Origin: a virus
Reading direction: 5' to 3' (one strand)
Virus record (IMG/VR): IMGVR_UViG_3300027985_001623
Location: 34,504-98,503 of that record
Length of the DNA: 64,000 bases
The translations under genes and the position numbers were made by a program. Every line of letters starts with the position of its first letter. The first letter of the stretch is position 1. The notes below the pieces were generated by a model. It did not search any database. It saw only the letters and a program-made list of their open reading frames with translations, and was not told the origin of the DNA. This document shows positions 5,269 through 53,952 of this stretch, one piece after another.

Positions 5269-6951
5269 TTAGTGCCCGATCCAGAAACCTTGAATTTTGT
5301 AAGACCCGCTAGTGAGTGTCAAGGGAATCGACCCGACACCATTAGCAGCAACAGTAATCACCATTTTATAGGCAGAAGACGAGGCAACGCCAATGATGTC
5401 AGTGGACGGTAAAACGAAATCAAACGTTGCACGAAGCTCGCTTGTGTTGCCCGATGGAATGCCGACAAACGAAAACTCTTTCGAGTTGTTTACTGCATTT
5501 CCTAGACCGTCCTGAAACTCAACCGTGACGACGAAGTTCTCCGTGATAGCTCCCGGAGTTACTAGCAACCCAAGCTCTACAGTGATGCCAGAACAGTAAC
5601 CCGGGATAGCTCCGGCTTGTGTGGCTACTGTGCCGAACGACACCTCTTTCGTCACAAACCCGGTGCCGGCGGCCGAAGAAATCGTGTCGAAAATAAACGG
5701 GCCATTAGCCCCCGCAACAAAACCGTCGCGACGAACAACTGTCGACACGTTGCCGAACGTCTCTTGACGAAAAATTGCAACGACGGACGCCGGATGCGTG
5801 CCTATGATTCCGTAATCGGCGGGGAGCAGTACGGGTGCGGATAGCTTCCCGCTACTAAGCACATCGCACGAAAGGCTGTCCGCTATAATGTATAGCCCCC
5901 AGTTGTCGGAAGGTTCTCGTTCACCGGTTATCGCTGAGTTGCCCGTGGTGTATCGACTCCAGCGGGGCAAACCGTAGGGCTCTACTGCGAGAACGTACAT
6001 CCATCGCGCCGAGTTTGGCGTAGCCATCGACACGGCGTAATCGCTAGTCGTAAACGCCCAATTCGTCGTTTCAACATCGGGTCCGCCAGGCCGAGTTGGT
6101 GCGATACGTCCGCGCATTCGATAATAACCATGGACAGTGAACGAGCCACTAAACGAGTTTGTCGTATTCGCTTGCAGATCAAACGTCCCCCCGATCTGCG
6201 TGCCAGAATTGTTCATCCCGTAATAGTGCCCGTTCTTAGCAATGAACCTATTGCCGAGAACCATTCTCGTATCGCCGCTAATGCGGCTGGCCAGCAAAGG
6301 CCGAACGTCGTAGAGGTCAACATCGGCGAAAGTCGACGTAGCCCCGTTATGAATGAGCACGCAAAGCGGCAACGACCCCGTGGTGACCCCAGGATACCCG
6401 GCCCCAGAAGATCCTTGGCGAATAGTAAATTGCAGTGACACCTGCAACGTATTCGTTAGCAAAGTGGCCGTAAACACACCCGTCGTCGGATTATAGATAT
6501 CCTGGCTCGTCGTGGTTATGGTCTCAACAAGTGCCGCTTCAACAATGTCAATTCGAATGCCTGACCCGTTCGCAACAAACGGCAACTCCGTAGCACTCGT
6601 CACGCCATCCGAGCTCACCAGCATGTAGTCCGAATCAACCGCGGAATTGTAACTGGTCGTTGTCCCGTGAACACCGAGAATGCCGGGCGACACGAGAAGG
6701 TAGTTTGAAAACGGGCGTACCTTCAGACCAGTGGTGACATCCGCCGAAACTCCCGTGCCGTTTACCGGAGAAACAAATTCGTTCCATGAGCTGTTATCAG
6801 AATTGCCCAACACAAACGAGTCGTTGTACATCCGGCGAAAAGCGTTAGTAAACGATGCTGCCGTGAAGTGCTGCAAAGCGTTTATGTCCGTGGACAACGC
6901 TCGGGATAAGTTTTGGATAACTTGTGTTTTTACGCCGCTGTTGTTGCTCAT
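5269..6951 (-). CDS. Tail fibre attachment / baseplate-peripheral structural protein
   Basis: 560 residues, Asn-, Thr- and Gly-rich. It starts MSNNSGVKTQVIQNLSRALS. The N-terminal 200 residues contain the phrase LLVSPGILGVHG, and the rest looks like repeated beta segments, which fits a baseplate-to-fibre adaptor or a short fibre. It lies four bases from the large fibre gene and after the baseplate gene ending at 6963. The role is inferred from order and composition. Confidence 0.65.
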   Translation of the reverse strand: MSNNSGVKTQVIQNLSRALSTDINALQHFTAASFTNAFRRMYNDSFVLGNSDNSSWNEFVSPVNGTGVSADVTTGLKVRPFSNYLLVSPGILGVHGTTTSYNSAVDSDYMLVSSDGVTSATELPFVANGSGIRIDIVEAALVETITTTSQDIYNPTTGVFTATLLTNTLQVSLQFTIRQGSSGAGYPGVTTGSLPLCVLIHNGATSTFADVDLYDVRPLLASRISGDTRMVLGNRFIAKNGHYYGMNNSGTQIGGTFDLQANTTNSFSGSFTVHGYYRMRGRIAPTRPGGPDVETTNWAFTTSDYAVSMATPNSARWMYVLAVEPYGLPRWSRYTTGNSAITGEREPSDNWGLYIIADSLSCDVLSSGKLSAPVLLPADYGIIGTHPASVVAIFRQETFGNVSTVVRRDGFVAGANGPFIFDTISSAAGTGFVTKEVSFGTVATQAGAIPGYCSGITVELGLLVTPGAITENFVVTVEFQDGLGNAVNNSKEFSFVGIPSGNTSELRATFDFVLPSTDIIGVASSSAYKMVITVAANGVGSIPLTLTSGSYKIQGFWIGH

Positions 6952-6962
6952 GGTGGTTCCGC

Positions 6963-8174
6963 TTACAAAGGTTCTTGAATAAGGTTATAGCCAACGCCTG
7001 CGGCGTGCTTGGAAAGAAGGAGGTCCCAAATAGCTCGATAGAAAGCCCCGCTATACGTCGAGTAGCCATCGTAAGCGGAATCTTTCGCGGTTAGGCCAGG
7101 GGCATCATACGCATTCGCCAACGGATACGCAGCAGCAGGCGAAACGTCATAACAAAGCCCAAAATCGCGAGAGTCGTTGACACGCGGAACTTCAACAAGA
7201 AAGAATCCGCGTGAATCGATTGAGTTTACGAGCAACTTAAACCGGTCACTCGGGCGAAACGCGGGGATCATATCCCACGCGAAATTACGATCCGGATTTT
7301 GCGGGGCGTCAGAACTACTACCAGCATCATAGTAGATCCCCGTGAAATTCGGGTACCCAATTTCTCGCAGCGTGCACGACCACGCCGGGTTACGTGCTCG
7401 AAGCAGTCGGTTGACACCACGAGTAATCGCCGCCGGAGAGACCGTGTCGGGAGACTCCGTCACGCGGAGACGAAACTCGTCGTCACTTTCAAACTCGTTC
7501 CTGAGAATGCCGAAATCTCGGGCTCGCGCATCTAAGTCCGCCGACCTGCCGCCACTGGTGGGGTTAATTTGTCGAATCGTCACTGACGGGTCAAAAGTCA
7601 CCGGATCCGTCACAAGATACCGGATCTCCGCAACCTCCCCGGCGATTATCTCACCGTTGCGTGCGACAAGCTCGCCTGTCGTGTTGTACTCGAAACCAAC
7701 ATCGACAGCCTCAATTGGCACCAAAAACGGACCTAAGTTCAAAGCGTCAAACGCCTGATCGACTGTCGTGACAAAATCTCGCCCGTCAACCGTGCCCACC
7801 CGTGTTCCGCGTTTCAGCGTGTACGCCGAAGTATCTGTCTTCCAAATCTCAATGAACCCAGTTGATTTGAGCCCGCCATCCGCGGTTATCACGTACGAAC
7901 CACACTCAAAGTTATTGATGCTCGTAGAAATGCGCGCAGCAATCTTAGCATTCGCTTGAAGCAACTCGTAACCGCTGTTTTTAGAGGCTTTTAGTCCAGC
8001 AATGTAGTCGCTTGGATAGGCTCGATCGAGAACACCAAGAAAATACACTTGCCCCTGCACTACTGCCGTACACGTGACTTTCGCCCCAGTTACCGGAGGG
8101 GCAATCTCGGGCGCTAGTGTCCACGAGGTGATTCCCGCGGGCTCCGTCGTCGTATACTGCACCGAATACGCCAT
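6963..8174 (-). CDS. Putative baseplate/tail protein (tail protein I-like position)
   Basis: 403 residues when started at the ATG at 8172-8174, which shares TAATG with the stop of the preceding gene and follows GGGAGCTCC. A longer frame to 8234 would overlap that gene. The segment around residues 200-280 (RSADLDARARDFGILRNEFESDDEFRLRV, given here as its first and last parts RSADLDARAR...FRLRV) resembles baseplate J-like proteins, where a DLDALAxxxGL...E.D...R motif is common. The C-terminal part has the Tyr-rich look of P2 gpI-type proteins. It follows the J-like gene by one small gene. Confidence 0.65.
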   Translation of the reverse strand: MAYSVQYTTTEPAGITSWTLAPEIAPPVTGAKVTCTAVVQGQVYFLGVLDRAYPSDYIAGLKASKNSGYELLQANAKIAARISTSINNFECGSYVITADGGLKSTGFIEIWKTDTSAYTLKRGTRVGTVDGRDFVTTVDQAFDALNLGPFLVPIEAVDVGFEYNTTGELVARNGEIIAGEVAEIRYLVTDPVTFDPSVTIRQINPTSGGRSADLDARARDFGILRNEFESDDEFRLRVTESPDTVSPAAITRGVNRLLRARNPAWSCTLREIGYPNFTGIYYDAGSSSDAPQNPDRNFAWDMIPAFRPSDRFKLLVNSIDSRGFFLVEVPRVNDSRDFGLCYDVSPAAAYPLANAYDAPGLTAKDSAYDGYSTYSGAFYRAIWDLLLSKHAAGVGYNLIQEPL

Positions 8175-8518
8175 TAAAGGAGCTCCCCCGCCGAGTTGAA
8201 CGCGTAAATAACCAGACGCGGGTTGTCCGGCCAAATAGGGCGGCCTTGCGGCGCATTTCTGCTGATAGAGAGCTGAAATCGTTGGTACCCCGCATCAACG
8301 ACAGGCGTAATCAACGACCCAGAGAACAACGGCATAAACCCTATGCCAGAAGACGGGTCGCCAGCGTAAGCGAACTCTTGCATCGTAGCGCCAGCATAGA
8401 AAATGCCCACAATGACGTGTGTCAAAGTATTCGGATTATCCGTGCGCACATCAAACCCCAACGCCTGTGTGGGATCGATGGGGCCCGCCACCGGAAACAC
8501 ATTAACGACTTCGATCAT
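8174..8518 (-). CDS. Small baseplate-region protein of unknown function
   Basis: 114 residues, beta-rich and without membrane segments. It begins MIEVVNVFPVAGPIDP. It overlaps the J-like gene by four bases and the next gene by TAATG, so all three are translationally coupled. The sequence looks like an Ig-like or fibronectin-like small domain (early hydrophobic strands, phrase FDVRTDNPNTLTHVIVGIFY). Probably a minor baseplate component, but no homologous family was recognised. Confidence 0.6.
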   Translation of the reverse strand: MIEVVNVFPVAGPIDPTQALGFDVRTDNPNTLTHVIVGIFYAGATMQEFAYAGDPSSGIGFMPLFSGSLITPVVDAGYQRFQLSISRNAPQGRPIWPDNPRLVIYAFNSAGELL

Positions 8519-43627: not shown

Positions 43628-43993
43628 CTACGGTGTTCTATCCCAGTATTCGAGTTGCGCCCTCAAGAACTGAACATCAGTTCTATTTTGTGAGTGCCTG
43701 ACTGCGAGTTTGTCCCCATTAGCAAGCCAATAGCGAATAGTATGTGTTTGACAGCCAATAGTCACCTCATTCTCATTACGAGCGATCCGGTACCTGTAGC
43801 CACCGTCACCGGAGCCCCGGCCAGAGCCATCGCCAGCACCAAAGCCGAAGCCGTGGCCATCGCCAGCACCGAAGCCGGAGCTACGGCCAGCGCCGAAGCC
43901 ATAGCCATCGCCAAAGCCAGCGCCGAAGCCGTGGTCATCACCGGCGCCAGCACCAGAACCAGCGCCAGAACCAGAGCCCCAGCCCCTAGCCAC
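43628..43993 (-). CDS. Glycine-rich repeat protein with TIGCQTH tail
   Basis: 121 residues. First two thirds is a Gly/Asp/Phe repeat (GFGAGDGHGFGFGAGDGSGR and similar). The last third NEVTIGCQTHTIRYWLANGD is a compact motif that I recall as often following such repeats in phage proteins. The repeats may form a flexible or polyproline-II-like spacer. Adjacent to the DUF6948-like gene with an 8-base overlap. Confidence 0.6.
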   Translation of the reverse strand: MARGWGSGSGAGSGAGAGDDHGFGAGFGDGYGFGAGRSSGFGAGDGHGFGFGAGDGSGRGSGDGGYRYRIARNENEVTIGCQTHTIRYWLANGDKLAVRHSQNRTDVQFLRAQLEYWDRTP

Positions 43994-44297
43994 GCCACAC
44001 CCCTACCTTGGACAACGCCTGCTCGGCGGTTTGAGACAACTCCATTATTTCCCGCGCATCGTCAATCGTAGCAGTACTTACGACGGGGGAAATTTTTCCG
44101 CCGGTGATACCATTCGATGCAATGGCGAACGTGTCGAGAGCTCCGCTATCCCACCGCCAAATGCGCTGAACATCTGTAAGGATGGCGATGCCACCATCTT
44201 TTTGTTTGTGGGACCTGTAGCCCGCAAGAGTTCCGAAAAAAACGCCCGAGCCAGGGGCTCGAACAACTACTCGTTTACCAATCAGTGGGTGTTTCAT
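43986..44297 (-). CDS. DUF6948-like protein
   Basis: 103 residues. LIGKRVVVRAPGSGVFFGTL, AILTDVQRIWRWDSGALDTF and TIDDAREIMELSQTAEQAL match the DUF6948 pattern of small phage proteins, which in my experience often lie beside the Gly-rich repeat protein. Function unknown. Confidence 0.7.
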   Translation of the reverse strand: MKHPLIGKRVVVRAPGSGVFFGTLAGYRSHKQKDGGIAILTDVQRIWRWDSGALDTFAIASNGITGGKISPVVSTATIDDAREIMELSQTAEQALSKVGVWRG

Positions 44298-44309
44298 GTG
44301 TTTTACCTC

Positions 44310-45251
44310 TTAGTGTCCAGTATCGTCGGGGCTTGTTGTCCTCACCCCCAAAATACGCTCAAACTCTGCAATTGCGTTGTAGAGTTCGGGGTCGACCGGC
44401 TGGTCAGCCTCCCTAAATTCATCGCACACGCCACGAAGCTCCATGAGACCAATAAGAGCAGCCTTACGGCTAACGGCTACGGTTTCTGTAGCGGTGGGCG
44501 GGGCCTCGTTTTTGACGTAACCCGAAATACGCTCGTCCGCGGACGGGGGTAATCGGACAACGTCGACGCGGTTCCAACTAGCGGGATCGATAAGGTAGCG
44601 GGAAGCTGCTGGTTTCGCTGCTGCTTTGCTCCAGACAGGTACCGCCATCAGAGCACGCCACGCTTCTTCAAGCGGAACGGGGATGAAATTATTCGGCCGG
44701 ATGCTCCACTCGTCTGGTTCCCCCGTTTCATAGTTACTGCCGTACGCGAGTTCAGGCTGAAACGTCACGATCGCGGCGGGGTGGGTTGTCTCGCCGTCGT
44801 AAGTTCCGTCCGGCAGCAGGTCGGCCATGCTCTCGACTTCCAACCAGCCGTCCATACCCACGGTGTCCAAGACCGCGTACGTGTCGTTTATGCCAGCGAT
44901 GACAAGCGCGGCGATCGAAAAAGTGCGGTCGCCGTAGGTGTAGGAGGGCTCAGCCCCGTCCTTAGTGTGCGCATCTTCGTCGCTCGCTGCGTCTTCTTTC
45001 TTCTCGTCGACGCAAGCAGATTCAATCTCCAGTTTATCGGCCGCCATGAACACGTAAGCCGCGGCCGAGGCCGCGTGCCGGGGTGTTGGGTCGCGCAGAA
45101 CACGGGCAATTCGTTCGTGCAGTCTTGCGATGAGAGAAAGCGCGGAGTCATCCCGCCACCCCTCGCGACCTTTCGAGATGCCGTAAGCCATGACGGCTCG
45201 GAGCTCGTGGACCCAGTTCGCTACTTCGTTTAGTTGTTCTTCATCGGTCAT
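44310..45251 (-). CDS. Fusion accessory protein (KGRxGWxDD module plus AAIVTF module)
   Basis: 313 residues from the ATG at 45249-45251 (a GTG at 45257 is also possible). Residues about 1-80 share SKGREGWRDDSALSLIARLH and AAYVFMAADKLE with the stand-alone 41595 protein, and residues about 95-225 share the AALVIAG, LPDGTY, AAIVTF, IPV pattern with the stand-alone 36068 protein. A third unique C-terminal part (about 245-313) is acidic. Function unknown but the fusion suggests linked jobs. Confidence 0.65.
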   Translation of the reverse strand: MTDEEQLNEVANWVHELRAVMAYGISKGREGWRDDSALSLIARLHERIARVLRDPTPRHAASAAAYVFMAADKLEIESACVDEKKEDAASDEDAHTKDGAEPSYTYGDRTFSIAALVIAGINDTYAVLDTVGMDGWLEVESMADLLPDGTYDGETTHPAAIVTFQPELAYGSNYETGEPDEWSIRPNNFIPVPLEEAWRALMAVPVWSKAAAKPAASRYLIDPASWNRVDVVRLPPSADERISGYVKNEAPPTATETVAVSRKAALIGLMELRGVCDEFREADQPVDPELYNAIAEFERILGVRTTSPDDTGH

Positions 45252-45253
45252 AA

Positions 45254-45517
45254 TCACGTTTCCCCGTTCTGTTCATCGCAATCGTTCGGTCTACGTCGCT
45301 TTGGGACGCCGAGCTCGTCTAATAGCCGAATAATTCTCCATATTCCGTCGCCAACCGTTAGCCCATCGCAACCATTTTCTTCGTCAAAAATATCATCCGT
45401 AGCTTCTGTCAGCTTTCTGATTTTAAGCAAAGCAGTAACTAGCTCGGACTTTCGTTTCTTTACAAGCTCTTTGAACTCCGATTGCGGAATGGCGTTTAAT
45501 TGTTCTTCGTTGGGCAT
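45254..45517 (-). CDS. Small helical protein with EEQLNAIP start
   Basis: 87 residues, MPNEEQLNAIPQSEFKELVK, helices rich in Lys/Glu, ends PKRRRPNDCDEQNGET. Its start shares the EQLNAIP tag with the 36702 and 39056 proteins. TAATG coupling with the preceding gene, ribosome site GGAGAA. Confidence 0.6.
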   Translation of the reverse strand: MPNEEQLNAIPQSEFKELVKKRKSELVTALLKIRKLTEATDDIFDEENGCDGLTVGDGIWRIIRLLDELGVPKRRRPNDCDEQNGET

Positions 45518-45756
45518 TACGTCTTCTCCAGCCCCACTACCGGTAACACTTTAAGAAACAGATCGGATGAGTACACCTTCCGGGTTAGTTTGAGCAACTC
45601 AATAAACGTCAACGGTCGCCTAACTCCGTGTCTTCGGACGGGGTCCCTTCTCATTCGCCGCACACGACGAGCCCGGCACTTCTGCCGATATCCCTTTCGT
45701 TTGCGTGGTGGCCACTCGCTTTTACGCACTCCTTCGTTCAAAATAGAAACGCTCAT
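45517..45756 (-). CDS. Basic small protein
   Basis: 79 residues with many Arg/Lys (PPRKRKGYRQKCRARRVRR). Possible nucleic-acid binder. Overlaps both neighbours (ATGA/TAATG). Confidence 0.5.
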   Translation of the reverse strand: MSVSILNEGVRKSEWPPRKRKGYRQKCRARRVRRMRRDPVRRHGVRRPLTFIELLKLTRKVYSSDLFLKVLPVVGLEKT

Positions 45757-46169
45757 GTGGTCCCGTTCAAAATCTTCAGCACCTCAGACGCGCAAAACTG
45801 CTGACCAGGTTGCGTCACTGGACAGTTCAACGTCGCTTTACAGTAATCACGTATGCGTGATTGGACCTCCTGGAGCTGCTTGAGTTTAGCGCTCAAGTCT
45901 TCACCTCCGGTCCCATCGGCAGTCGGCTTCTTTTCGAACCAAGAAGGTTTTGGGAACCGCTCGGTGAACACGTATTTGTCCACTTCTTCGAACTCGATGT
46001 GTGAAGCTTCGGGCCAGTTCCTCAGAATCTCGACGAGGTCGTCTGCGTAGGCCACGACGACAGAGTAGCTTTTGTCAATGGCGTAGCCCGAGCACCAGTA
46101 CGGATGCTTGACCGGCCAATTGACGGCCCGATAATCATCACCATTTGTGTGGAATCGCGCGCGAATCAT
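45753..46169 (-). CDS. Accessory protein (MIRARFHTN family)
   Basis: 138 residues from the ATG at 46167-46169 (a 157-residue frame is rejected). MIRARFHTNGDDYRAVNWPV, WCSGYAIDKSYSVVVAYADD and YVFTERFPKPSWF fit a recurring phage domain. C-terminal half is a helix with DYCKATLNCP. Confidence 0.65.
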   Translation of the reverse strand: MIRARFHTNGDDYRAVNWPVKHPYWCSGYAIDKSYSVVVAYADDLVEILRNWPEASHIEFEEVDKYVFTERFPKPSWFEKKPTADGTGGEDLSAKLKQLQEVQSRIRDYCKATLNCPVTQPGQQFCASEVLKILNGTT

Positions 46170-46468
46170 TCTTCTCCCAAACAATCTTGAACCGTGTCTA
46201 TGGCTGCATAAAAATCGCAGCTCCATCCGGCTGAGCGAAGAGCCATCGCCTCACGGATGATGATTTTGAGTGCGGCCACGGGAATAACGACATGCCGCTC
46301 ATCGAACTCAGTGAGCGCTTTTTTTACGTCCTCGTACTCGTAGGTTACGCCGTCAAAGAACAGGCAGTTAGCGCTTGCGTATCCACGCGTAACGCCAGGG
46401 TCCTCTAGAAACATACGCGCCGCGTATGCTTGTTCGGAAGTGAGCTCAAGTTTAGGCTTCGGGTTCAT
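46166..46468 (-). CDS. Accessory protein with helical N-terminal motif
   Basis: 100 residues from the ATG at 46466-46468. KLELTSEQAYAARMFLEDPG shares the ELT-x-x-Q-x-x-A pattern with the 37484, 38140 and 40557 proteins; C-terminal MALRSAGWSCDFYAAIDTVQ helix. No family. Confidence 0.55.
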   Translation of the reverse strand: MNPKPKLELTSEQAYAARMFLEDPGVTRGYASANCLFFDGVTYEYEDVKKALTEFDERHVVIPVAALKIIIREAMALRSAGWSCDFYAAIDTVQDCLGEE

Positions 46469-47097
46469 GATTTCTTCCTTTTGCGCACTTTGGGTTTTTT
46501 GCCAGCGCGTCCGTCGGTTTCCCAATCAGCAGCATAGGCCGCGCCGGGACTCATAATGTTACCATTAGCGACGGCGTCGAGCACCATCGCTTCGGCAGCT
46601 TCTTGAAGACTTACACCACAACGCCAATCTAGGAATTTCGTCGAGCAGCAAAAATTGTGTTGTTCATTGACTTGGTCGGTGTCCAAAAATCGAAAATGCT
46701 GGGGTACTTTAACGCCGGCCACTGCTTCAAGTGCGGCGCGGTAATACGCGTCGAGCCATAGCCGTTCTTCGGCGGAGAACCCATCGAGTTTTTCTTCCGC
46801 GATTTGCCGGGGGGTCTTCTTTTGCGCTTGAAGTAACTTCGTCAAGTTAGCGTTAGCTTGTTCGAGTTGAGTTTGCGCTTCATCTAGATCGATTTCGAGC
46901 TGGACAATCTGATTTCGCGCTTTCCTCTCCAAGGCGCTGAAATTGGTATTCGCCTGATGCTGCTCTCTTTCGAGCCTCATAATTTGGGACTCCAACTCGC
47001 GGATTTCCACGTCTCGTTCGAGAAGCTGTTTGTGAAAAGCAGCTAACGCGTAGTTCAACGCGACGACGATGCCGTTACTCGCATTTTCGGCGGTCAT
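46465..47097 (-). CDS. Coiled-coil accessory protein
   Basis: 210 residues. A long coiled coil at about residues 20-95 (LLERDVEIRELESQIMRLER, QLEIDLDEAQTQLEQANANL) followed by a globular part (LDGFSAEERLWLDAYYRAAL, RFLDTDQVNEQHNFCCSTKF) and a basic tail (KKPKVRKRKKS). Unknown partner. Confidence 0.6.
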   Translation of the reverse strand: MTAENASNGIVVALNYALAAFHKQLLERDVEIRELESQIMRLEREQHQANTNFSALERKARNQIVQLEIDLDEAQTQLEQANANLTKLLQAQKKTPRQIAEEKLDGFSAEERLWLDAYYRAALEAVAGVKVPQHFRFLDTDQVNEQHNFCCSTKFLDWRCGVSLQEAAEAMVLDAVANGNIMSPGAAYAADWETDGRAGKKPKVRKRKKS

Positions 47098-47348
47098 GAC
47101 GTTTTACCTTTGCGTGGTGCAGGCAAAGGTTTTTTACGCGCCTTTTTTGTCGCTGCCGCCGCAGCGCGTTCTTCTACGATTCGCGCTTTTGCGAGCGCGA
47201 GCATTTTCGCTCGAACACCATTAGCGAATTGCATAATCAAGGTTTCGAACTCCATAAGTCCGCACTGCGCTCCCGACGAAACTCCAGCCGTCATGCGCCC
47301 GTCACTTGTGATTTTGACAGATACAGAATATTTTCGTTGCTTGGTCAT
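47094..47348 (-). CDS. Small basic protein
   Basis: 84 residues from the ATG at 47346-47348 (MTKQRKYSVSVKITSDGRMT). A beta-hairpin start, then helix MQFANGVRAKMLALAKARIV and a Lys/Ala-rich tail. Possibly DNA-binding. Shares start with stop of the previous gene. Confidence 0.5.
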   Translation of the reverse strand: MTKQRKYSVSVKITSDGRMTAGVSSGAQCGLMEFETLIMQFANGVRAKMLALAKARIVEERAAAAATKKARKKPLPAPRKGKTS

Positions 47349-47365
47349 GTAGTCTCTCACGTGCA

Positions 47366-47399
47366 AACACCGCTATTGGTGTTTCTCAATAGCGGTGTT
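47366..47399 (-). terminator. Hairpin between RyR-domain gene and the next gene
   Basis: 13-bp stem AACACCGCTATTG / CAATAGCGGTGTT (47366-47378 with 47387-47399), 8-base loop. Only three T follow on the minus strand, so it may be a weak terminator or attenuator. Confidence 0.5.
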
Positions 47400-47425: not shown

Positions 47426-47836
47426 TCAGAACGGGCTTATCAAACCCTCGTGAATCAGCATCGTTTTGGCGATGGCGCCAAAGATGTAGTCTTTGGCGCG
47501 CTGTTCTGGAGGAAGTTGCTCATAAGGGACAAAACACGGATGCTCTTTTTTGTCGGGGTCCTTAACGGACCCGTACTTCCACCCATCCTCGGCTTTCTCT
47601 GCGAGCCAAGATTCATGCGACGCCGACGGGGGCGCGTCCGGATGGGTTCGGTGAAATTGCACGCCATTGATGGCAGATCCAGTCTGCCAATCAGGAGCAT
47701 CCGACCAATGCGGTTGGCTATGGTCACCAAGCGCTGCACAATAGGCGCGATTTGCCTCATGACAAGTTTCTGCGATGCGCTCGATGGCGAGCCGCTCGGA
47801 AGCTAGCTGGTGTTGGTTGTCGGGTTGTGTGTTCAT
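47426..47836 (-). CDS. RyR-domain protein
   Basis: 136 residues. CHEANRAYCAALGDHSQPHW and GWKYGSVKDPDKKEHPCFVP give the RyR domain pattern (Pfam PF02026) in a small phage protein. FGAIAKTMLIHEGLISPF forms the C-terminal helix. RyR domains are named from ryanodine receptors. A role in binding ligands is suggested in the family, not shown. Confidence 0.8.
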   Translation of the reverse strand: MNTQPDNQHQLASERLAIERIAETCHEANRAYCAALGDHSQPHWSDAPDWQTGSAINGVQFHRTHPDAPPSASHESWLAEKAEDGWKYGSVKDPDKKEHPCFVPYEQLPPEQRAKDYIFGAIAKTMLIHEGLISPF

Positions 47837-48142
47837 TTCTCTCCAATAGGTCCGCTATCTTCGACGTTTCGCTTTTCGCCCAGGTTTCGCGGAATTTACC
47901 TGCATCGGTCGCCCCTACTAAAAACGACCTCTGGTGCGCCGTTGGGAATCGAACCCAAATTCGCCGGCCGGCGCAATTTTTTTGAGTGTGTGCTAATTTC
48001 GCATGACGAGACCTCCTTCGTCGGGCTTCGCGAGCCAAAGTTTCGCGGCAGATTTGGCTCGGGCTGGGATATCCGCTCTACCCGTGCGGTAAGAAGCAAG
48101 AGCCCAATTTTAGCGGCGAGCGCTTGCTTGGCGTGGTAATTC
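47837..48142. other. Intergenic region with tRNA-like element
   Basis: Over 300 bases without a convincing gene. Contains the tRNA-3'-end-like structure at 47932-47975 and a strong ribosome-site-like AAGGAGG followed by ATG CGA AAT TAG (about 48003-48020 on the minus strand), a three-codon reading frame. A longer frame over 47757-48038 was judged spurious because it reads through the tRNA-like element. Confidence 0.5.
47932..47975 (-). ncRNA. tRNA T-arm plus acceptor minihelix-like element
   Basis: On the minus strand: TGCGCCG, a ten-base insertion, TTGGG-TTCGATT-CCCAA (a perfect T-arm with consensus loop), CGGCGCA, then CC. The 7-bp acceptor and 5-bp T-stem pair perfectly and would stack like a tRNA upper half. 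No D-arm or anticodon arm exists, so it is not a usable tRNA. It could be the 3' end of a host tRNA at an attachment site, or a tRNA-like structure. Confidence 0.55.
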
Positions 48143-48352
48143 CTACGTGTTGCAGGCGATGCCGGCTTTGGCCATCATCGTCGCGTTTTGCAGCAGTGTG
48201 AGCGCGGCCGATTTCTCTCGGCTATCCGGTTGGCTGCTGTCGATGAGGTGAGCGAACGCTTTTGCCGTTTCTCCGATTGCGTCGTACTTTGGGATTTGGT
48301 CGGGTTTTGGCGCGTGGTAGGTGAACATATTGTTGATCTGGTCGGTCATCAT
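48143..48352 (-). CDS. acb2: Acb2-type anti-CBASS protein (Acb2/Tad1 domain)
   Basis: 69 residues, the usual size. FTYHAPKPDQIPKYDAIGET, AKAFAHLIDSSQPDSREKSA and the helix AALTLLQNATMMAKAGIA reproduce the Acb2 consensus (xYHAPKxxQxxKYxxIRxxA, LIDxxxPxSREKSxALxxLE, A..WANASIA). Family members bind cyclic di- and trinucleotides and block CBASS (and sometimes Thoeris) signalling by sequestering the messenger. Start is the ATG at 48350-48352 (or 48347-48349). It lies at the promoter-proximal end of the minus accessory block beside the iterons. Confidence 0.85.
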   Translation of the reverse strand: MMTDQINNMFTYHAPKPDQIPKYDAIGETAKAFAHLIDSSQPDSREKSAALTLLQNATMMAKAGIACNT

Positions 48353-48427
48353 GGTGTGCTGATCTCTGAGTGGTAGGTCGCTTCCTATTCTTTAGGGAGC
48401 GGTTGGATTTTCAAACAAAATTTTAAC
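48353..48427. promoter_or_regulatory. Upstream region of the Acb2 gene
   Basis: Contains an imperfect inverted repeat (CGCTTCCTA around TAGGGAGCG, about 48380-48402) and possible boxes TTGAAA-17-AGAATA on the minus strand. A promoter for the leftward accessory genes is expected here; the boxes are weak. Confidence 0.45.
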
Positions 48428-48515
48428 TTTTGCAATCTAGCGTGCGCCATTTTGCACCGCTTATTGCGCCGTTTTGCAATCTACCGTGCGCCGGTTTGCA
48501 ATCTGTCTTTATCTG
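48428..48515. repeat. Four tandem 22-bp iterons
   Basis: Units begin at 48428, 48450, 48472 and 48494, exactly 22 bp apart. The shared core is TTTTGCAATCT followed by CGTGCGCC; unit 2 keeps TTTTGCA and TGCGCC, unit 4 keeps GTTTGCAATCT. The spacing equals two helical turns. They lie between divergent genes and could be operators or replication iterons. Confidence 0.85.
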
Positions 48516-48530
48516 GGTAACCTAACTCCC

Positions 48531-48809
48531 GTGCCCGAAGAACCGGCCTTGCCCGCGCGAATCCGCGCCTACTATTCCAACTTGGGAGTGGCCCCCACGG
48601 CCATCACTGCCGCCTTTGGGAGAGTTTGCAACATCAGCTACCACACGGCTGCCAGCATCATGGCTGGACAGGCGGTGAGCCTCCCCGTGGCGAACCGAGT
48701 TGTGGAATTGAGCCCGATCGCCACAACGGTCACGGAGCTTGTCGAAGGAACCCATGAACAAGACGCGCAGAAACAGAGCACGCCGGCGCCGAGCCGAGCG
48801 AAGGGCTGA
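48531..48809 (+). CDS. Putative HTH-like regulator next to the iterons
   Basis: About 92 residues from the GTG at 48531-48533. No Shine-Dalgarno motif is near, so the transcript may be leaderless; an in-frame TTG at 48474 lies inside the iterons and is less likely. The segment ARIRAYYSNLGVAPTAITAA then FGRVCNISYHTAASIMAGQA looks like a small helix-turn-helix (Cro/phage repressor style). It lies immediately beside the iteron array, so it may bind it. Overlaps the next gene in another frame. Confidence 0.5.
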   Translation: MPEEPALPARIRAYYSNLGVAPTAITAAFGRVCNISYHTAASIMAGQAVSLPVANRVVELSPIATTVTELVEGTHEQDAQKQSTPAPSRAKG

Positions 48810-49032
48810 CGCAAACTGGCGATGCGTATTCGCGCCCCTGCAAGCTGCGGACCTCTACAAGAACATCGTGGCCCGGCTAGGTACAGCGGTGTGCAGCTCA
48901 CCAGAGTTCGTGATGCGCTTTCACGCCATTGAAGAAGAGCATCAAAAAATACTTGATGCGCTGCGAAAAGCAGAGCGCATAAACCCGGATAAACTTCGAA
49001 CGGAACTAGTGCACCGCACTAAAGACGATTGA
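48754..49032 (+). CDS. Basic small protein
   Basis: 92 residues from ATG 48754-48756 with GAAGGAACCC as ribosome site. Very basic N-terminus (RRNRARRRRAERRADANWR), then RFHAIEEEHQKILDALRKAE helix. Possibly nucleic-acid binding. Confidence 0.5.
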   Translation: MNKTRRNRARRRRAERRADANWRCVFAPLQAADLYKNIVARLGTAVCSSPEFVMRFHAIEEEHQKILDALRKAERINPDKLRTELVHRTKDD

Positions 49033-49053
49033 ACAACCCTGTACGAGTAAACC

Positions 49054-49254
49054 ATGTTAGGCATTAAAATCATAATCACACTCGCCACCGTGCTCTACAC
49101 GCAGCACTTGGTAATTCGACTTTTTGGGAGCCTCGGTAAAGGAGACAAAAATATCACCGTTCTCTGGATCGTACTCCTCATAACAACCACCATCGGCGTA
49201 GTTGCAGGCGTAGAGTTGGGGGGCATTGTTTGTTCTTTGCTTCAACGAATTTAG
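49054..49254 (+). CDS. Two-span membrane protein
   Basis: 66 residues. MLGIKIIITLATVLYTQHLV and ITVLWIVLLITTTIGVVAG form two membrane segments with a short loop. Weak ribosome site (GAGTAAACC). Function unknown; small early membrane proteins of phages often alter host membranes. Confidence 0.5.
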   Translation: MLGIKIIITLATVLYTQHLVIRLFGSLGKGDKNITVLWIVLLITTTIGVVAGVELGGIVCSLLQRI

Positions 49255-49270
49255 AGGGTGGGCGTAGTTG

Positions 49271-49486
49271 ATGTCCACTGATTGCAAAAAGACCGCATAC
49301 GAGGCAGAGCTCGGCTTTTTAACCGATGCTATGCTTGAAGTCGCGCGACACCGCTTAGCGGCTATCATTGCGGCGCACCCTACAGAGTCTTTGAACGAAC
49401 AATTTCGATTTTACGAAACTGTAAGTGACAGAGAACTCACTATTGAAATAAATCTGCGTGACGTAAGCCGCATTTTAGCCCTATGA
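49271..49486 (+). CDS. Small helical protein
   Basis: 71 residues from the ATG at 49271-49273 (GAGGGTGGG upstream). LTDAMLEVARHRLAAIIAAH and SDRELTIEINLRDVSRILAL. Ends in ATGA with the next gene. Confidence 0.5.
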   Translation: MSTDCKKTAYEAELGFLTDAMLEVARHRLAAIIAAHPTESLNEQFRFYETVSDRELTIEINLRDVSRILAL

Positions 49487-49647
49487 GCGGATTTCTTACC
49501 GCATCATCACACCAGACACAAAGCTTGAAACGAGTTTACAAGATGTACCTAGACCTTTGGCCATGGACAAATTCTTTCATTCACGCACTGAATTCCTTGG
49601 GAATTGACTGCAAGGAACTCCCTGGGCGCTCCGAAGATGACGACTGA
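49483..49647 (+). CDS. Small protein of 54 residues
   Basis: ATG 49483-49485 overlaps the preceding stop (ATGA). MSGFLTASSHQTQSLKRVYK, KMYLDLWPWTNSFIHALNSL, ends in GRSEDDD. Overlaps the next ATG by 11 bases. No family. Confidence 0.5.
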   Translation: MSGFLTASSHQTQSLKRVYKMYLDLWPWTNSFIHALNSLGIDCKELPGRSEDDD

Positions 49648-49978
49648 AGCGCGAGAGTATTTGCTCATCGGCTATGATGCGTTCGAAACCGTTTTCCGTG
49701 AAAACGGTGTTTACACGATCTGCTTATGGATGGACTGCGATGAGGACTTCAAAGAGGATGGAGCGGGCTACGAGTGGTTTTACGAGATCGATCTGCTAGA
49801 AATCGATGCGCGACGCATCGCTAAAGCAGGCGGCACTACGGCGCCTAAACTCTACGAAATCATTAGAACCGCACCTGAGATCCGCATCTACAAATATCAA
49901 TGGCGACAAGATTGGATTCTCGATCGAACATGCACGTTCGAGACGTTTCCGAAAGACTGCCTACCCAAAAAAGAATAA
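49637..49978 (+). CDS. Small acidic protein
   Basis: 113 residues from the ATG at 49637-49639. MTTEAREYLLIGYDAFETVF, CLWMDCDEDFKEDGAGYEW, then a long amphipathic region. Unknown. Confidence 0.55.
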   Translation: MTTEAREYLLIGYDAFETVFRENGVYTICLWMDCDEDFKEDGAGYEWFYEIDLLEIDARRIAKAGGTTAPKLYEIIRTAPEIRIYKYQWRQDWILDRTCTFETFPKDCLPKKE

Positions 49979-49982
49979 GCAC

Positions 49983-50291
49983 ATGCCTAAAAACAAAGAA
50001 ATCATAATTCGCGTGAGCGGTGTGGCCGGATGTGGTAAATCCGCGGTTATGGCCATTATCGCAAAAGCTCTTCAAGACGCCGGGTTCACGTCAGTGACTC
50101 AGCAACATCTCGATCAAGAGCCGTACAGCGTTGTCCGGGCGCTCGATATCGCGACGAGCGTCCGTGATTGCAAGCTGTCTATTCAAGAGCACTACATCGG
50201 CCGTGAGTTGCTAGTTCTCGACGATCCGCCGCGCGACCCAGAAGAAGTCCGAAGTCAAATGGGCGCCGTGCGGGCGTGGGCTCGAAAATAA
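49983..50291 (+). CDS. Small P-loop NTPase-like protein
   Basis: 102 residues from the ATG 49983-49985. Walker A GVAGCGKSA at residues 13-21 with a preceding strand IIIRVS, plus LLVLDDPP near residue 76 that may be Walker B (D-D). Much shorter than normal kinases, resembling small phage P-loop proteins. Last gene of the plus-strand island. Confidence 0.65.
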   Translation: MPKNKEIIIRVSGVAGCGKSAVMAIIAKALQDAGFTSVTQQHLDQEPYSVVRALDIATSVRDCKLSIQEHYIGRELLVLDDPPRDPEEVRSQMGAVRAWARK

Positions 50292-50318
50292 AAAACCACC
50301 CGCACAATTGCGGGTGGT
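50290..50318 (-). terminator. Terminator for the 50-56 kb minus-strand operon
   Basis: ACCACCCGC / GCGGGTGGT stem (50295-50303 with 50310-50318), loop ACAATT. On the minus strand the stem is followed by TTTTT. It lies beyond the last minus gene (50450) and converges with the plus-strand island. Confidence 0.88.
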
Positions 50319-50449
50319 CGATGGAATGAGTCGACTGAGCGTCTTGGAGAAGACGCCTTTGAAGCTAGCACCCGAAATTCGAACAGTCAATACCGGGCGT
50401 CAAAGTTTTCCAGCAGGGCTAAGCCTAGCCCTGCTAACCTTTCTGCCCT
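50319..50449. other. Gap between convergent transcription units
   Basis: About 130 bases without genes on either strand after the terminator. An antisense frame 50400-50693 overlaps the membrane gene and is not supported. Confidence 0.4.
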
Positions 50450-50623
50450 CTAAGGCCATCGCGTCCAAACCATGTAAAAAATAATCGCCGCGAGGACAAG
50501 GTGGACCAAAGAGAACCACCGAAACCCTGGGTCCCTCCGGCCCATTTTCCAGCACTCCCAGGCTGACCAAAGAGTCATTGCAGCCATGCACAAAAGGAAA
50601 GCTATGAGACGGGGGCTGCTCAT
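50450..50623 (-). CDS. Small two-span membrane protein
   Basis: 57 residues from the ATG at 50621-50623. LIAFLLCMAAMTLWSAWE and FSLVHLVLAAIIFYMVWT give two membrane spans with a short basic linker. It overlaps the previous gene by ATGA and follows GGAG. A longer frame to 50782 is a shadow. Confidence 0.6.
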   Translation of the reverse strand: MSSPRLIAFLLCMAAMTLWSAWECWKMGRRDPGFRWFSLVHLVLAAIIFYMVWTRWP

Positions 50624-51087
50624 CTTTGTCTCCTCGCCAGCTTTCGGGTTTCTTCCTCGTCGATAATTTCGCGTTGCATCTTCCGCAGTGCATCCCGTAT
50701 CGGAATCATCATCGGCACATACAGGTGCTCCAGTCGATCGACACCGTGGGTTTTCTTCCCAGCAACCCCGAAGGATATCCACCCCGTGGTGGAAACTTTC
50801 AAGGTAAAGGTGATCTCTCGATTCTTGCGCCTCGTTATCTTATCCCGAACGTCTGGGAAGACTGCCTCTCGCAGTGGCCCAGCCGGGGGTCTGTCAGCCT
50901 CCACGCAGTCGAGCGTAATAATCCGGTACTTCGCTTTGGATGCCGGAGAACGTTTTACCCACACGCCTAACGCCTCGATAGCTTCTCCAAGCGTTCGAAA
51001 CGTTTGGCTTCCGAGAGGGAGCGTTAAGTCGCTACTGTTCGCGGATTCTTTGGCTACAGCGAATCGCTTGGTTCCCATTTTACTCAT
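50620..51087 (-). CDS. Accessory protein of unknown function
   Basis: 155 residues. MSKMGTKRFAVAKESANSSD, LREAVFPDVRDKITRRKNRE, FTLKVSTTGWISFGVAGKKT, helix at end. Beta-sheet core with a basic C-terminal helix. Overlaps neighbours. Unknown. Confidence 0.55.
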   Translation of the reverse strand: MSKMGTKRFAVAKESANSSDLTLPLGSQTFRTLGEAIEALGVWVKRSPASKAKYRIITLDCVEADRPPAGPLREAVFPDVRDKITRRKNREITFTLKVSTTGWISFGVAGKKTHGVDRLEHLYVPMMIPIRDALRKMQREIIDEEETRKLARRQR

Positions 51088-51547
51088 TTTCGACGCGCAT
51101 CCTTTCTCGAAAGTTTCGGTCGAGGGTGTCTACCCGGCTCCTCATTTCGTCCAACAATGTGCGCAGTTCGTGGCGATGTATCATTGCTTCGGTGGGGGTC
51201 TTGTAGCAATAGCGCTCGATGTATGTCGCCAGGGAGTGGAGTTTAGCCACTATGTCGTCTGAGACAACCCTGAGTCTTTGTCTCTGCACCGCGAGGTTCC
51301 CGGCGGTGTCATCCATCTCCTCGAAGGTGGGAGGCGGGCGAAAACTCCATGCGGTCTTGGACTTCTCACGCAATGTATCCTTGTCGACTCGTATTTCGCT
51401 ACTCATATACTCATCACGGAGTATATAGAGGGTGCGTGTCTCCCGAGCCAAAGCATAAACGACACCGGTCCGAAGCCGTCTAAAGTACCGCGGCACCTTC
51501 GGTTCTCTACCCTTTTTTGTTGCTTTTTTAGCGTTCTTCTCCGTCAT
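51080..51547 (-). CDS. Basic coiled-coil protein
   Basis: 155 residues from the ATG at 51545-51547. MTEKNAKKATKKGREPKVPR basic start, KVPRYFRRLRTGVVYALARE, C-terminal coiled-coil with HRHELRTLLDEMRSRVDTLD. Unknown. Confidence 0.55.
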   Translation of the reverse strand: MTEKNAKKATKKGREPKVPRYFRRLRTGVVYALARETRTLYILRDEYMSSEIRVDKDTLREKSKTAWSFRPPPTFEEMDDTAGNLAVQRQRLRVVSDDIVAKLHSLATYIERYCYKTPTEAMIHRHELRTLLDEMRSRVDTLDRNFRERMRVENE

Positions 51548-51560
51548 CGTGGCTTTTCTT

Positions 51561-51695
51561 TCAGTAGTCGAGCAAGTATTTTTGGTAGTGGTCACATGCG
51601 GCCAGTACCGCGTTGTCGGTCTCCAATTTTCGGGCCCGGGCTTTCCACTCCTCCGTGGTGAGGACCTCAGATGGTAGTTCTTCAAAGATGTTCAT
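51561..51695 (-). CDS. Small helical protein, 44 residues
   Basis: ATG 51693-51695 right after the TGA of the neighbouring (frame-corrected) gene. MNIFEELPSEVLTTEEWKAR and ARKLETDNAVLAACDHYQKY. One amphipathic helix. Confidence 0.55.
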   Translation of the reverse strand: MNIFEELPSEVLTTEEWKARARKLETDNAVLAACDHYQKYLLDY

Positions 51696-51699
51696 GGCC

Positions 51700-51893
51700 T
51701 CACCGGAGTGCGTCGGGGTCGTAACTCTCGCGCTCCGGCGTCTCCACATCAACAAAGTGGCCCGCCGCCTCGTTATTTGCGACGCCCTGATCTTCTTCGA
51801 CTTTAAGAAGCTAGTTTTTGTGCCATGGGGTAGGGAGTCGAGCTCGCGAATGATTGCGATTCTCGTGTCCCAAGTGATGTCACGCGAACCCAT
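51700..51893 (-). CDS. Small protein with probable one-base frame break
   Basis: ATG at 51891-51893, MGSRDITWDTRIAIIRELDS then LPHGTKTSFLK. Directly after that the current frame turns into Arg-rich junk (RRRATLLMWRRRS), while the -1 frame reads VEEDQGVANNEAAGHFVDVE and TPERESYDPDALR before a TGA at 51700-51702. A missing A in the AAA run (51802-51804) or a -1 slip at C_TTA_AAG (51801-51807) would restore a protein of about 64 residues. A continuous 110-residue frame to 51561 is unlikely. Confidence 0.6.
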
Positions 51894-51895
51894 AA

Positions 51896-52213
51896 TCAGC
51901 CCAACTCGGCATCATCGCCATCCGAGTCGTCCGAGTCGTCCGAGTCGTCCTCCCCAAGGGCTTTGAAACCAACGGTGAGCACGTACATTTTACCGTTTAT
52001 TTCCGTTTCGAGCTCTCTCGAAACGCTGGCGTAGAGCCCTTCTGACGCGTAAAACTCCTCGTATTTGACCACCAGTTCCTCGAATACCTTCTGGTCAACG
52101 CTAGCCACCATAGACCGGGCTAATTTGCCGAATAGCTTTCCGTACTCGGCGAAAAATTTTGTGTAGTCTAAACCCTCTTGTTTCTGTTCTTCTTGTGTCA
52201 TGATAACGCTCAT
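51896..52213 (-). CDS. Small helical protein with acidic tail
   Basis: 105 residues. DYTKFFAEYGKLFGKLARSM helices, NGKMYVLTVGFKALG strand, and a DDSDDSDDSDGDD acidic repeat. ATGA coupling with the next gene. Acidic tails of this kind can mimic DNA or act as disordered linkers. Confidence 0.55.
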   Translation of the reverse strand: MSVIMTQEEQKQEGLDYTKFFAEYGKLFGKLARSMVASVDQKVFEELVVKYEEFYASEGLYASVSRELETEINGKMYVLTVGFKALGEDDSDDSDDSDGDDAELG

Positions 52214-52443
52214 TTCAACTTTTCTTCCTCAGGGTCCACGACTATCCCGTTTTTCACGCACACCGAAGCAGTGTGTGACCACGGCGTGCGCCCGCCAGTT
52301 ACGGGAACTTCAATTACACGCGCGCCGACGCTTTCGCATTTTTGTGCGTACTCGCGGTTGGTGTGATAACCCCAACCGATCAGCGCGAGACATAGGACGA
52401 TAGCGAAGATTAGCGGCCCGTTTGCGTGCATTTTTGTGCTCAT
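52210..52443 (-). CDS. Single-pass membrane protein
   Basis: 77 residues from the ATG at 52441-52443. LIFAIVLCLALIGWGY is a membrane segment near the N-terminus, then periplasm-type polar sequence with two Cys (CESVGARV, VCVKNGIVV). Confidence 0.55.
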   Translation of the reverse strand: MSTKMHANGPLIFAIVLCLALIGWGYHTNREYAQKCESVGARVIEVPVTGGRTPWSHTASVCVKNGIVVDPEEEKLK

Positions 52444-52727
52444 GATTCTCCTTCTCCACACGTGTGCTCCGTGCTGGTGAGCGCGTCGCGAATGATGCGG
52501 CTGCCCAACCCAGCAGCGATAAGCGCCCCATGACTTGACTCGTCAAGCCAAGCTATGGCGCAGTGATATCGATTACCGTTGTCCACCGTTCGCGTGGTCC
52601 AGCCGAGTGCCAGCACGTCGCACTCGCCCGCGAGCACGGCGTCGCGAACTCGGTCGAGGTCGGCTAGCATGGCCGCGCGACCTGTCGGGGCATACCCGAA
52701 CTGCTGTCCAATTTGGCGTACGCTCAT
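52440..52727 (-). CDS. Accessory protein of 95 residues
   Basis: From the ATG 52725-52727 (MSVRQIGQQFGYAPTGRAAM). LADLDRVRDAVLAGECDVLA, TTRTVDNGNRYHCAIAWLDE. A longer frame to 52925 has an atypical Arg-rich start. Function unknown. Confidence 0.55.
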   Translation of the reverse strand: MSVRQIGQQFGYAPTGRAAMLADLDRVRDAVLAGECDVLALGWTTRTVDNGNRYHCAIAWLDESSHGALIAAGLGSRIIRDALTSTEHTCGEGES

Positions 52728-52768
52728 GTCTTTTCCTTTAGCATAGCTCGAACTACCCGTTCGGACCG

Positions 52769-52984
52769 TTACCGAGAGTCCAGATCGAGTTCGCAGTACT
52801 CCGAACTGGTCGCGAGTAGATGGTCGTAGTCGCCGCTTTTTGCTCGTGCACGATATTCGTCCACGACCGCGGGCGGCACATCTGCGCGCTTGAGTGCCTT
52901 CACGCAAGCTGTTATGATAGCCCAAGCGTTTCCATCGAAAATAACGGCTGGAGGTTTCTTTATTTTGGTTCCGGGGACGTACAT
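52769..52984 (-). CDS. Small helical phage protein (NAWAIITACVKAL type)
   Basis: 71 residues. DGNAWAIITACVKALKRADV and SGDYDHLLATSSEYCELDLD resemble a widespread small phage family (NAFAIIG-KALR-AGV-SGDYDNLL). Function unknown. Start ATG 52982-52984 overlaps the previous gene end. Confidence 0.65.
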   Translation of the reverse strand: MYVPGTKIKKPPAVIFDGNAWAIITACVKALKRADVPPAVVDEYRARAKSGDYDHLLATSSEYCELDLDSR

Positions 52985-53952
52985 TTTAAGTTCTCCGATG
53001 ATTCGTATTCAAGGCATTGGGCAACTTGTTGAAACCACGCCGCGGCCTCGCGAACCTGATCGGCTGACAGCGAGAGCAGCAATTCGGCACTTCCACCCAT
53101 CGTAAACGTGTACATTCCCACAAAACGCCCTTCGCCCACTGTAAGTGTGGTCAACGTCACGCGTCGATCTAAATGCGAAAGTCTGAGCGGGTCCGGAGCG
53201 GCCGGCTGACCTCTTTTGGGACACTCTCGATTTTTCAACTTACCCGTGCCTCCGCATCGAGCCAGCAAAGCGCACACCAGCTTTTGGCTCTCTGCAAGCG
53301 CATGTTTGTGTTGGTCAACAATGGCGCCTTGCGCTTTAGTCGTTTCACGAAACTCATGACACTTTTCGTTGAACTGTTTTAACAGTTCATCGTAAAGTTG
53401 TTTTGCCCCTTTAAGACCTTGCCGGAGCACGCTCTCCTCGTGTTTCCAGTGCTTGCAAGAGTCAGCGATGACGCGTAGCGTTCGCACCTCGTCGCAAACT
53501 TCATGGTATTTTTCCGGTATTTCACGCACAAACTTGTCGTAGCGTTGTTGCGAAGCTTCAAGTTCTTGCGTCAGACTTTTGATTTTCTCGGTGAGCTTCT
53601 GGTTTTCCAGTACGGCGAGGGCACATCGAGCTGGCCACGATTCGGCCGGTTCTTGCACGTCGCTGCTTTCTTCGGAGGCCACGGGCTGGACTTGCTCAGG
53701 CTGCTCTCTCGAACCTGAGATTACATCGATGACCAAATCACGTTCGCCGAACGGAACTAGCCATCGATTTGTGTAACGTGCGTTATCTCCAAGCTCTCCC
53801 CACAAGTGTTTACCCGTCGTTCCCAGAAGCATCGGCACGGCGCTTTCAATATCGTCTTCGTAAACAACGAAGATGCCAGGCCGTTTGGTGTACCCCGCGT
53901 ACGCAGCATGGATAAGATCGATGAAGCTCAATTTCTTTTTTTCTTCGTGCAT
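52960..53952 (-). CDS. Long coiled-coil accessory protein
   Basis: 330 residues. Starts with a small globular N-terminus (KKLSFIDLIHAAYAGYTKRP), then a helical part (LENQKLTEKIKSLTQELEAS, QGLKGAKQLYDELLKQFNEK) and a C-terminal beta region (RRVTLTTLTVGEGRFVGMYT) with a GGTGKLKNRECP region. No enzymatic motif recognised. Confidence 0.6.
   Translation of the reverse strand: MHEEKKKLSFIDLIHAAYAGYTKRPGIFVVYEDDIESAVPMLLGTTGKHLWGELGDNARYTNRWLVPFGERDLVIDVISGSREQPEQVQPVASEESSDVQEPAESWPARCALAVLENQKLTEKIKSLTQELEASQQRYDKFVREIPEKYHEVCDEVRTLRVIADSCKHWKHEESVLRQGLKGAKQLYDELLKQFNEKCHEFRETTKAQGAIVDQHKHALAESQKLVCALLARCGGTGKLKNRECPKRGQPAAPDPLRLSHLDRRVTLTTLTVGEGRFVGMYTFTMGGSAELLLSLSADQVREAAAWFQQVAQCLEYESSENLKCTSPEPK

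Follow-up and report, generated by a model that had tools for sequence, protein, structure and literature searches.

A hairpin protein of the Acb2/Tad1 family, a candidate cyclic-nucleotide sponge, encoded beside a RyR-domain gene in a virus genome

What is the function of the 69-codon gene at the head of the leftward accessory block in virus record IMGVR_UViG_3300027985_001623, and is that function shared by the gene beside it? The window, meaning the whole stretch of 64,000 nucleotides that was analysed, covers positions 34,504 to 98,503 of the record. An earlier note, made from the sequence alone, had described the gene product as an Acb2-type anti-CBASS sponge and had suggested that its neighbours might also be anti-defence genes. 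The 69-residue ORF that it had reported is present on the minus strand and intact, with its ATG at 48352; a second ATG at 48349, which would yield a protein of 68 aa, is favoured by the N-termini of relatives. The coordinates of the features are collected in Table 1.

Table 1. Features of the locus, the apparent NARP1 operon of the same record, and proteins in which the RyR and hairpin domains are joined
Feature	Position or locus	Strand	Basis or remark
Acb2/Tad1 hairpin-family protein, candidate cyclic-nucleotide sponge	48143-48352	-	PF24729, phrog_1454, AlphaFold, Foldseek
RyR-domain protein, 136 aa, RyDEP family, candidate cADPR sponge or glycosidase	47426-47836	-	PF02026, ligand residues, fusions
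Weak match to a sigma-70-like promoter (TTGAAA, 16 nt, AAGAAT)	48387-48414	-	Upstream of the sponge gene
Direct repeat in three copies (29-nt units at exactly 22-bp spacing), TTTTGCAATCTAGCGTGCGCC-like	48428-48500		Between the sponge gene and the divergent ORFs
Divergent ORF without known family	48474-48809	+	No Pfam or PHROG match
Apparent NARP1 (Adps/Namat) operon	5874-8203 of the whole record (locus L232; not part of the window)		Namat-like and Adps-like genes
RyR then hairpin, 186 aa	L208		Above Pfam cut-offs
Hairpin then RyR, 256 aa	L204		Above Pfam cut-offs
RyR then Vs.4-like hairpin, 218 aa	L185		Above Pfam cut-offs
SUFG_00048 (Sulfitobacter phage phiCB2047-B, isolate), RyR + hairpin fusion	L231:2471-3034		Deposited as hypothetical protein

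Family membership was assessed by profile searches. Among 24,736 Pfam models, the window protein matched PF24729 ('Acb2/Tad1, hairpin domain') with 55.7 bits (E=5.7e-15), for which the curated cut-off is 27 bits, and the alignment spans model positions 1-58 of 58; the match is well above chance. In PHROGs, phrog_1454 was matched at E=3.4e-18, together with PHROG 31113. The motifs YHAPK (residues 12-16), KYDAI (22-26) and LID...P.SREKS (36-48) listed in the earlier note are literally present, and the last one reads A.A.IA (A61, A63, I65, A66) rather than A..A.IA. The window protein is the sole hairpin-family copy in the 98.5-kb virus record, and the family was found in 0 of 14 control genomes. 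NCBIfam holds no model for the hairpin, and a phmmer search of the PDB with the single window protein returned no match.

Relatives are numerous. At E<=1e-3, tblastn with the window protein reached 91 phage records, the nearest of which, at 55-58% identity, come from Paenibacillus phages; most of these relatives were deposited as 'hypothetical' or 'phosphomannomutase'. IMG/VR scans gave 420 confirmed hairpin relatives, of which 80 were kept, and bacterial genomes added 74 more, Bacillota among them in large number. The label '(putative) phosphomannomutase' is carried by hairpin proteins of ~70 aa in both Paenibacillus and Brevibacillus phages (e.g. KT361655, MH460827, NC_028805), and on members of this family it is likely a mis-annotation.

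The fold of the window protein was predicted with AlphaFold2 using 69 relatives, and the monomer model has a pLDDT of 93.8. Its helices, at residues 3-9, 17-40 and 45-68, comprise one short and two long antiparallel helices, a pattern that matches that of the published Acb2 protomer (PMC12043709). When the model was compared with 350,542 PDB chains using Foldseek, Vs.4 (7uq2) ranked first and second, at a TM of 0.65-0.70, Tad1 third, and Acb2 (8h2x) eleventh. With E-values above 1, which a hairpin this short leads one to expect, the order is a ranking that is suggestive rather than proof. The profile search and structure prediction that the earlier note had proposed as checks thus both returned the family that it had named.

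The sub-family is a different one. The motifs that had been taken to define the Acb2/Tad1 family instead mark a large stand-alone YHAPK...SREKS clade, of which the window protein is a member; YHAPK and SREKS are both absent from classical Acb2, represented by T4 Vs.4 and PaMx33 Acb2. The consensus of a 70-member alignment of this clade is MNxQIENNFxYHAPKEGQPEKYxAIREKAKELAYLIDExCPxSREKSLAxTxLExAVMWANASIARNE, and the median length of its members is ~70 aa. Vs.4 homologues constitute PHROG 717 (PMC10097602), which was not matched by the window protein in the PHROG profile search, and direct BLASTP against T4 Vs.4 produced no alignment; an assignment to Acb2 proper was rejected on these two results. 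Kinship to Acb2 is, as judged from sequence, visible only with profiles: hhalign of the clade profile against an Acb2-type alignment gave a probability of 96.4% (E=1.1e-9). A profile of 70 relatives searched against the PDB matched 'Acb2 homolog 43' (9ptq) at E=5.6e-6, Tad1 at 0.007 and Vs.4 at 0.8. Tad1 identity was likewise rejected, the window protein being 69 aa long, all helical, and lacking an antiparallel beta-sheet domain. The earlier note was therefore right about the family and overstated both the sub-family and the certainty of function.

Residues of known role were transferred from Vs.4 by aligning its N-terminal half and its second helix, without gaps, to those of the window protein. 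In Vs.4, cGAMP is contacted by Y8, H11, K23, R79 and F82, and the hexamer interface includes L29, A66, A73 and A77 (PMC10097602). The hexamer alanines correspond to A50, A57 and A61 of the window protein and are all kept, L29 is conservatively changed to F33, and the stacking Y8 is kept as Y12. This tyrosine is the one cGAMP contact of the five that is left, the others being replaced (H11 by P15, K23 by G27, R79 by A63, F82 by A66), and three of the five are absent throughout the clade. All core packing positions are retained, as are R45 and the SRE loop, which is invariant in the 70-member alignment.

Four positions set the window protein apart from its own clade. Arginine 27 is found in 142 of 148 relatives, W60 in 136, N62 in 147 and R67 in 125, and the window protein carries R27G, W60M, N62K and R67C. 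The scan pattern used to recover relatives could have inflated the counts at W60 and N62, and a recount was therefore made on the 76 members with the N-terminal pattern, which gave R27 in 74, W60 in 72, N62 in 76 and R67 in 70. The combination G/M/K/C at 27/60/62/67 occurs in no other clade member, and a DNA pattern for MMAKAGIA, by which relatives with the same substitutions were sought, found none in viral contigs. Departure at all four positions is seen in one of the 148 others, Curtobacterium phage Sunfish gp10, which is of a different subtype and was deposited as 'cyclic nucleotide sequestering protein'.

Judged by these residues, the window protein is best described as an Acb2 scaffold whose pocket is unusual, and the earlier designation as an anti-CBASS sponge holds for the scaffold and is too firm as to function, R27, W60, N62 and R67 having been lost. 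R27 matches the cGAMP-contacting K23 of Vs.4, and the ligand is uncertain for this reason. With the basic residue at 27 lost and R45 and the SRE loop kept, cyclic-dinucleotide binding is predicted to be weakened or altered. R45 aligns with R67 of PaMx33 Acb2, which we take to be part of the trinucleotide site, and on that assumed assignment binding of a cA3-like trinucleotide may be retained.

Two alternative readings bear on this pocket. The hairpin may have kept its fold and been retuned to sequester a signal other than the canonical cyclic dinucleotides of CBASS, for example a trinucleotide alone, the Tad1 ligand gcADPR or another nucleotide, a reading that we regard as rather unlikely. It would explain why four pocket-region positions changed together while scaffold and hexamer positions stayed, it accords with Sunfish gp10, which departs at all four and remains in the family, and the invariant SRE loop has its counterpart in the SREN of Tad1. 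A close orthologue would show whether the changed residues are under purifying selection, and none was available for a selection test because the terminase relatives L216 and L217 (64% identity) are fragmentary and lack the hairpin. We give somewhat less credence still to decay, in which the hairpin would fold but no longer bind ligand and the RyR protein would be the only working counter-defence gene here. Glycine in place of R27 and lysine in place of N62, the latter a residue present in all 76 N-terminal-pattern members, are what such loss might look like. Natural loss-of-function acb2 alleles exist in T2 and PaMx41 (PMC12657218). A decaying gene of 69 codons in a compact phage would, however, be expected to gain stops, whereas the frame is intact, the Pfam score high and the core packing kept.

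The next gene downstream encodes the RyR-domain protein, which matches PF02026 at E=8.2e-12 and shows sequence kinship with PDB entries of ryanodine-receptor repeats. Phage RyR-domain proteins (RyDEP) defeat Thoeris by hydrolysing or sequestering 2'cADPR and 3'cADPR, with H75, W78, H100 and D117 as ligand or catalytic residues (PMC13232231, a 2026 preprint). All four are present in the neighbour with identical spacing, as H74, W77, H99 and D116, and by these residues the protein belongs to the RyDEP family. It shares ~58% identity with the RyR portion of Pectobacterium phage protein CB1_68; the sponge-type homologue 7 of RyDEP comes from a Pectobacterium phage and is not necessarily CB1_68 (PMC13232231). 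The expectation that anti-defence genes would lie nearby is thereby supported for this next gene. The remaining neighbours (43986-47366 on the minus strand and 48739-53952) yielded no defence-related family, only weak AAA or coiled-coil matches and a DUF6948 protein (PF22253, E=2.2e-13), which is encoded at 43986-44297 on the minus strand, at the opposite end of the leftward block from the sponge gene.

The two domains are joined in other phages. PF24729 lies in frame with RyR in 3 of 34 IMG/VR relatives of the window RyR protein, and a further fusion is found in an isolate (Table 1); in a Bacillus canaveralius prophage (L118) the RyR and hairpin genes are directly adjacent. That both domain orders and two subtypes of hairpin are represented implies that the joining occurred independently. 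The domains usually occur apart: RyR was found in 2 of 50 hairpin records, and the hairpin in 3 of 36 records (34 RyR relatives and 2 terminase relatives). Where an RyR-relative record held both, they were fused in 3/3 cases. The reading of the window pair as one counter-signalling module therefore rests on fusion and adjacency, not on co-occurrence frequency, and it is made because other phages carry both domains in one polypeptide. The RyDEP preprint (PMC13232231) makes no mention of Acb2 or Tad1, nor of RyR fused to phage domains.

The fusions also bear on whether the hairpin is a sponge at all. It could instead be a structural or protein-binding helical hairpin whose place next to the RyR gene is incidental; the clade is widespread and its genomic settings varied, for example adjoining the portal gene in Gordonia phage ChisanaKitsune, and our literature search found no published ligand data for members of the YHAPK/SREKS clade. 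Another such setting is a 201-aa protein (L077:4001-4603) in which the hairpin domain comes first, at the N-terminus, then a lengthy acidic linker, then a C-terminal region without known family. Against a non-sponge role stand the RyR fusions, seen in either order across several phages, and the profile match to the solved 'Acb2 homolog 43', both of which point to the same functional area; we consider such a role improbable.

The reading that we prefer, and hold to be reasonably probable, is that the hairpin and RyR proteins form a two-gene module by which immune signals of two kinds, cyclic oligonucleotides and cADPR, are removed. It draws directly on the family match, the predicted monomer fold, the kept alanines and stacking tyrosine, the RyR ligand residues, the adjacency and the fusions. 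By analogy with solved members, the hairpin would assemble as a hexamer and would hold cyclic-oligonucleotide signals in its interface pockets, and such capture would keep the effectors of CBASS, and perhaps of type III CRISPR, switched off. The RyR partner would remove 2'/3'cADPR made by Thoeris TIR proteins, acting as a sponge or as a glycosidase, so that in an infection both CBASS and Thoeris might be blunted by one module. In hosts with Panoptes, a system that detects sponge activity, sponges can be a liability (PMC12657218).

RyDEP feeds NARP1 NAD+ repair, and a NARP1 operon was for this reason looked for; an apparent one was located elsewhere in the record. It contains a Nampt/Namat-type enzyme (NAPRTase, E=1.8e-37) that carries GSYTYQYQTRD and deviates from the published Namat signature in one residue, a Q, where N or V is typical at the third small position (PMC12774641). 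A PRPP-synthetase-like protein directly adjoins the Namat-like enzyme, in the place of Adps, and the pair would presumably work as NARP1.

The sponge gene is the first of the leftward block and has upstream of it an intergenic stretch followed by divergent plus-strand ORFs, which agrees with the promoter-proximal position given in the earlier note. The repeat core TGCAAANNGGCGCA has three copies in this stretch and none elsewhere in the 98.5-kb record at <=1 mismatch; the repeats are possible operators or iterons. The sigma-70-like match has 9 of 12 consensus positions, with 3 such sites found against 1.1 expected, and is no evidence of function. The true start of the divergent ORF probably lies further inside, and by its position the ORF is perhaps a small regulator. 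Repeats and divergent layout fit a regulated promoter region, and from this layout early expression of the sponge gene would be expected. Between the sponge and RyR genes, at 47932-47975 on the minus strand, lies a tRNA minihelix with a 7-bp acceptor stem, a 5-bp T-stem, the loop TTCGATT and a CCA end, without D or anticodon arms. Neither 60 shuffles of the window nor the remainder of the record contains its pattern, which has 4 matches in 1.69 Mb of loci. ARAGORN called no tRNA there, and the best Rfam match, mascRNA-menRNA, reached E=0.012 when 1 kb was searched and stayed below the gathering score. Possible identities for the minihelix are a remnant of a tRNA, an att-like site and a signal for processing by RNase P.

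Taken alone, the hairpin is a further member of a widespread family, and the stronger result lies in the RyR neighbour and in the fusions. What appears to be new is that the commonest stand-alone form of the family adjoins, and elsewhere is fused to, the RyR domain reported in 2026 to disarm Thoeris signals. Such fusions, being natural, speak strongly for joint function; annotators gain from them a rule for locating counter-defence genes and biochemists single proteins with two immune-signal pockets, and the four window substitutions provide a clean natural test of the residues that set ligand choice. As a broader and more tentative proposal, one we find conceivable rather than probable, phages may build a modular dual-signal sponge, in which the hairpin takes cyclic oligonucleotides and RyR takes cADPR isomers, as adjacent genes or as a fusion in either order, blunting CBASS and Thoeris; in this virus it would be backed by the apparent NARP1 operon for NAD+ repair, with the hairpin retuned to an unusual ligand.

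Compared with known systems, RyDEP proteins either hydrolyse or sequester cADPR, and the window copy may, as far as its sequence tells, act in either way. Vs.4 (7uq2) and PaMx33 Acb2 (8h2x) have their Pfam domain in common with the window protein, and differ from it in a longer inter-helix loop. Tad1 (PDB 7uav, 7uaw, 8kbe) possesses an N-terminal beta-sheet domain, absent from the window protein, that helps to form the gcADPR pocket; its C-terminal hairpin contains the segment SRENACALTHVEEALMWMN, which resembles the SREKS..ALT.LE.AVMWAN of the clade, with SREN where the clade has the SRE loop. The best PDB sequence match of the clade profile is 'Acb2 homolog 43' (9ptq, 76 aa), for which no publication was found; it lacks the YHAPK start of the clade, is about equal in length, and has REKS...LEEAMFFA in common with it.
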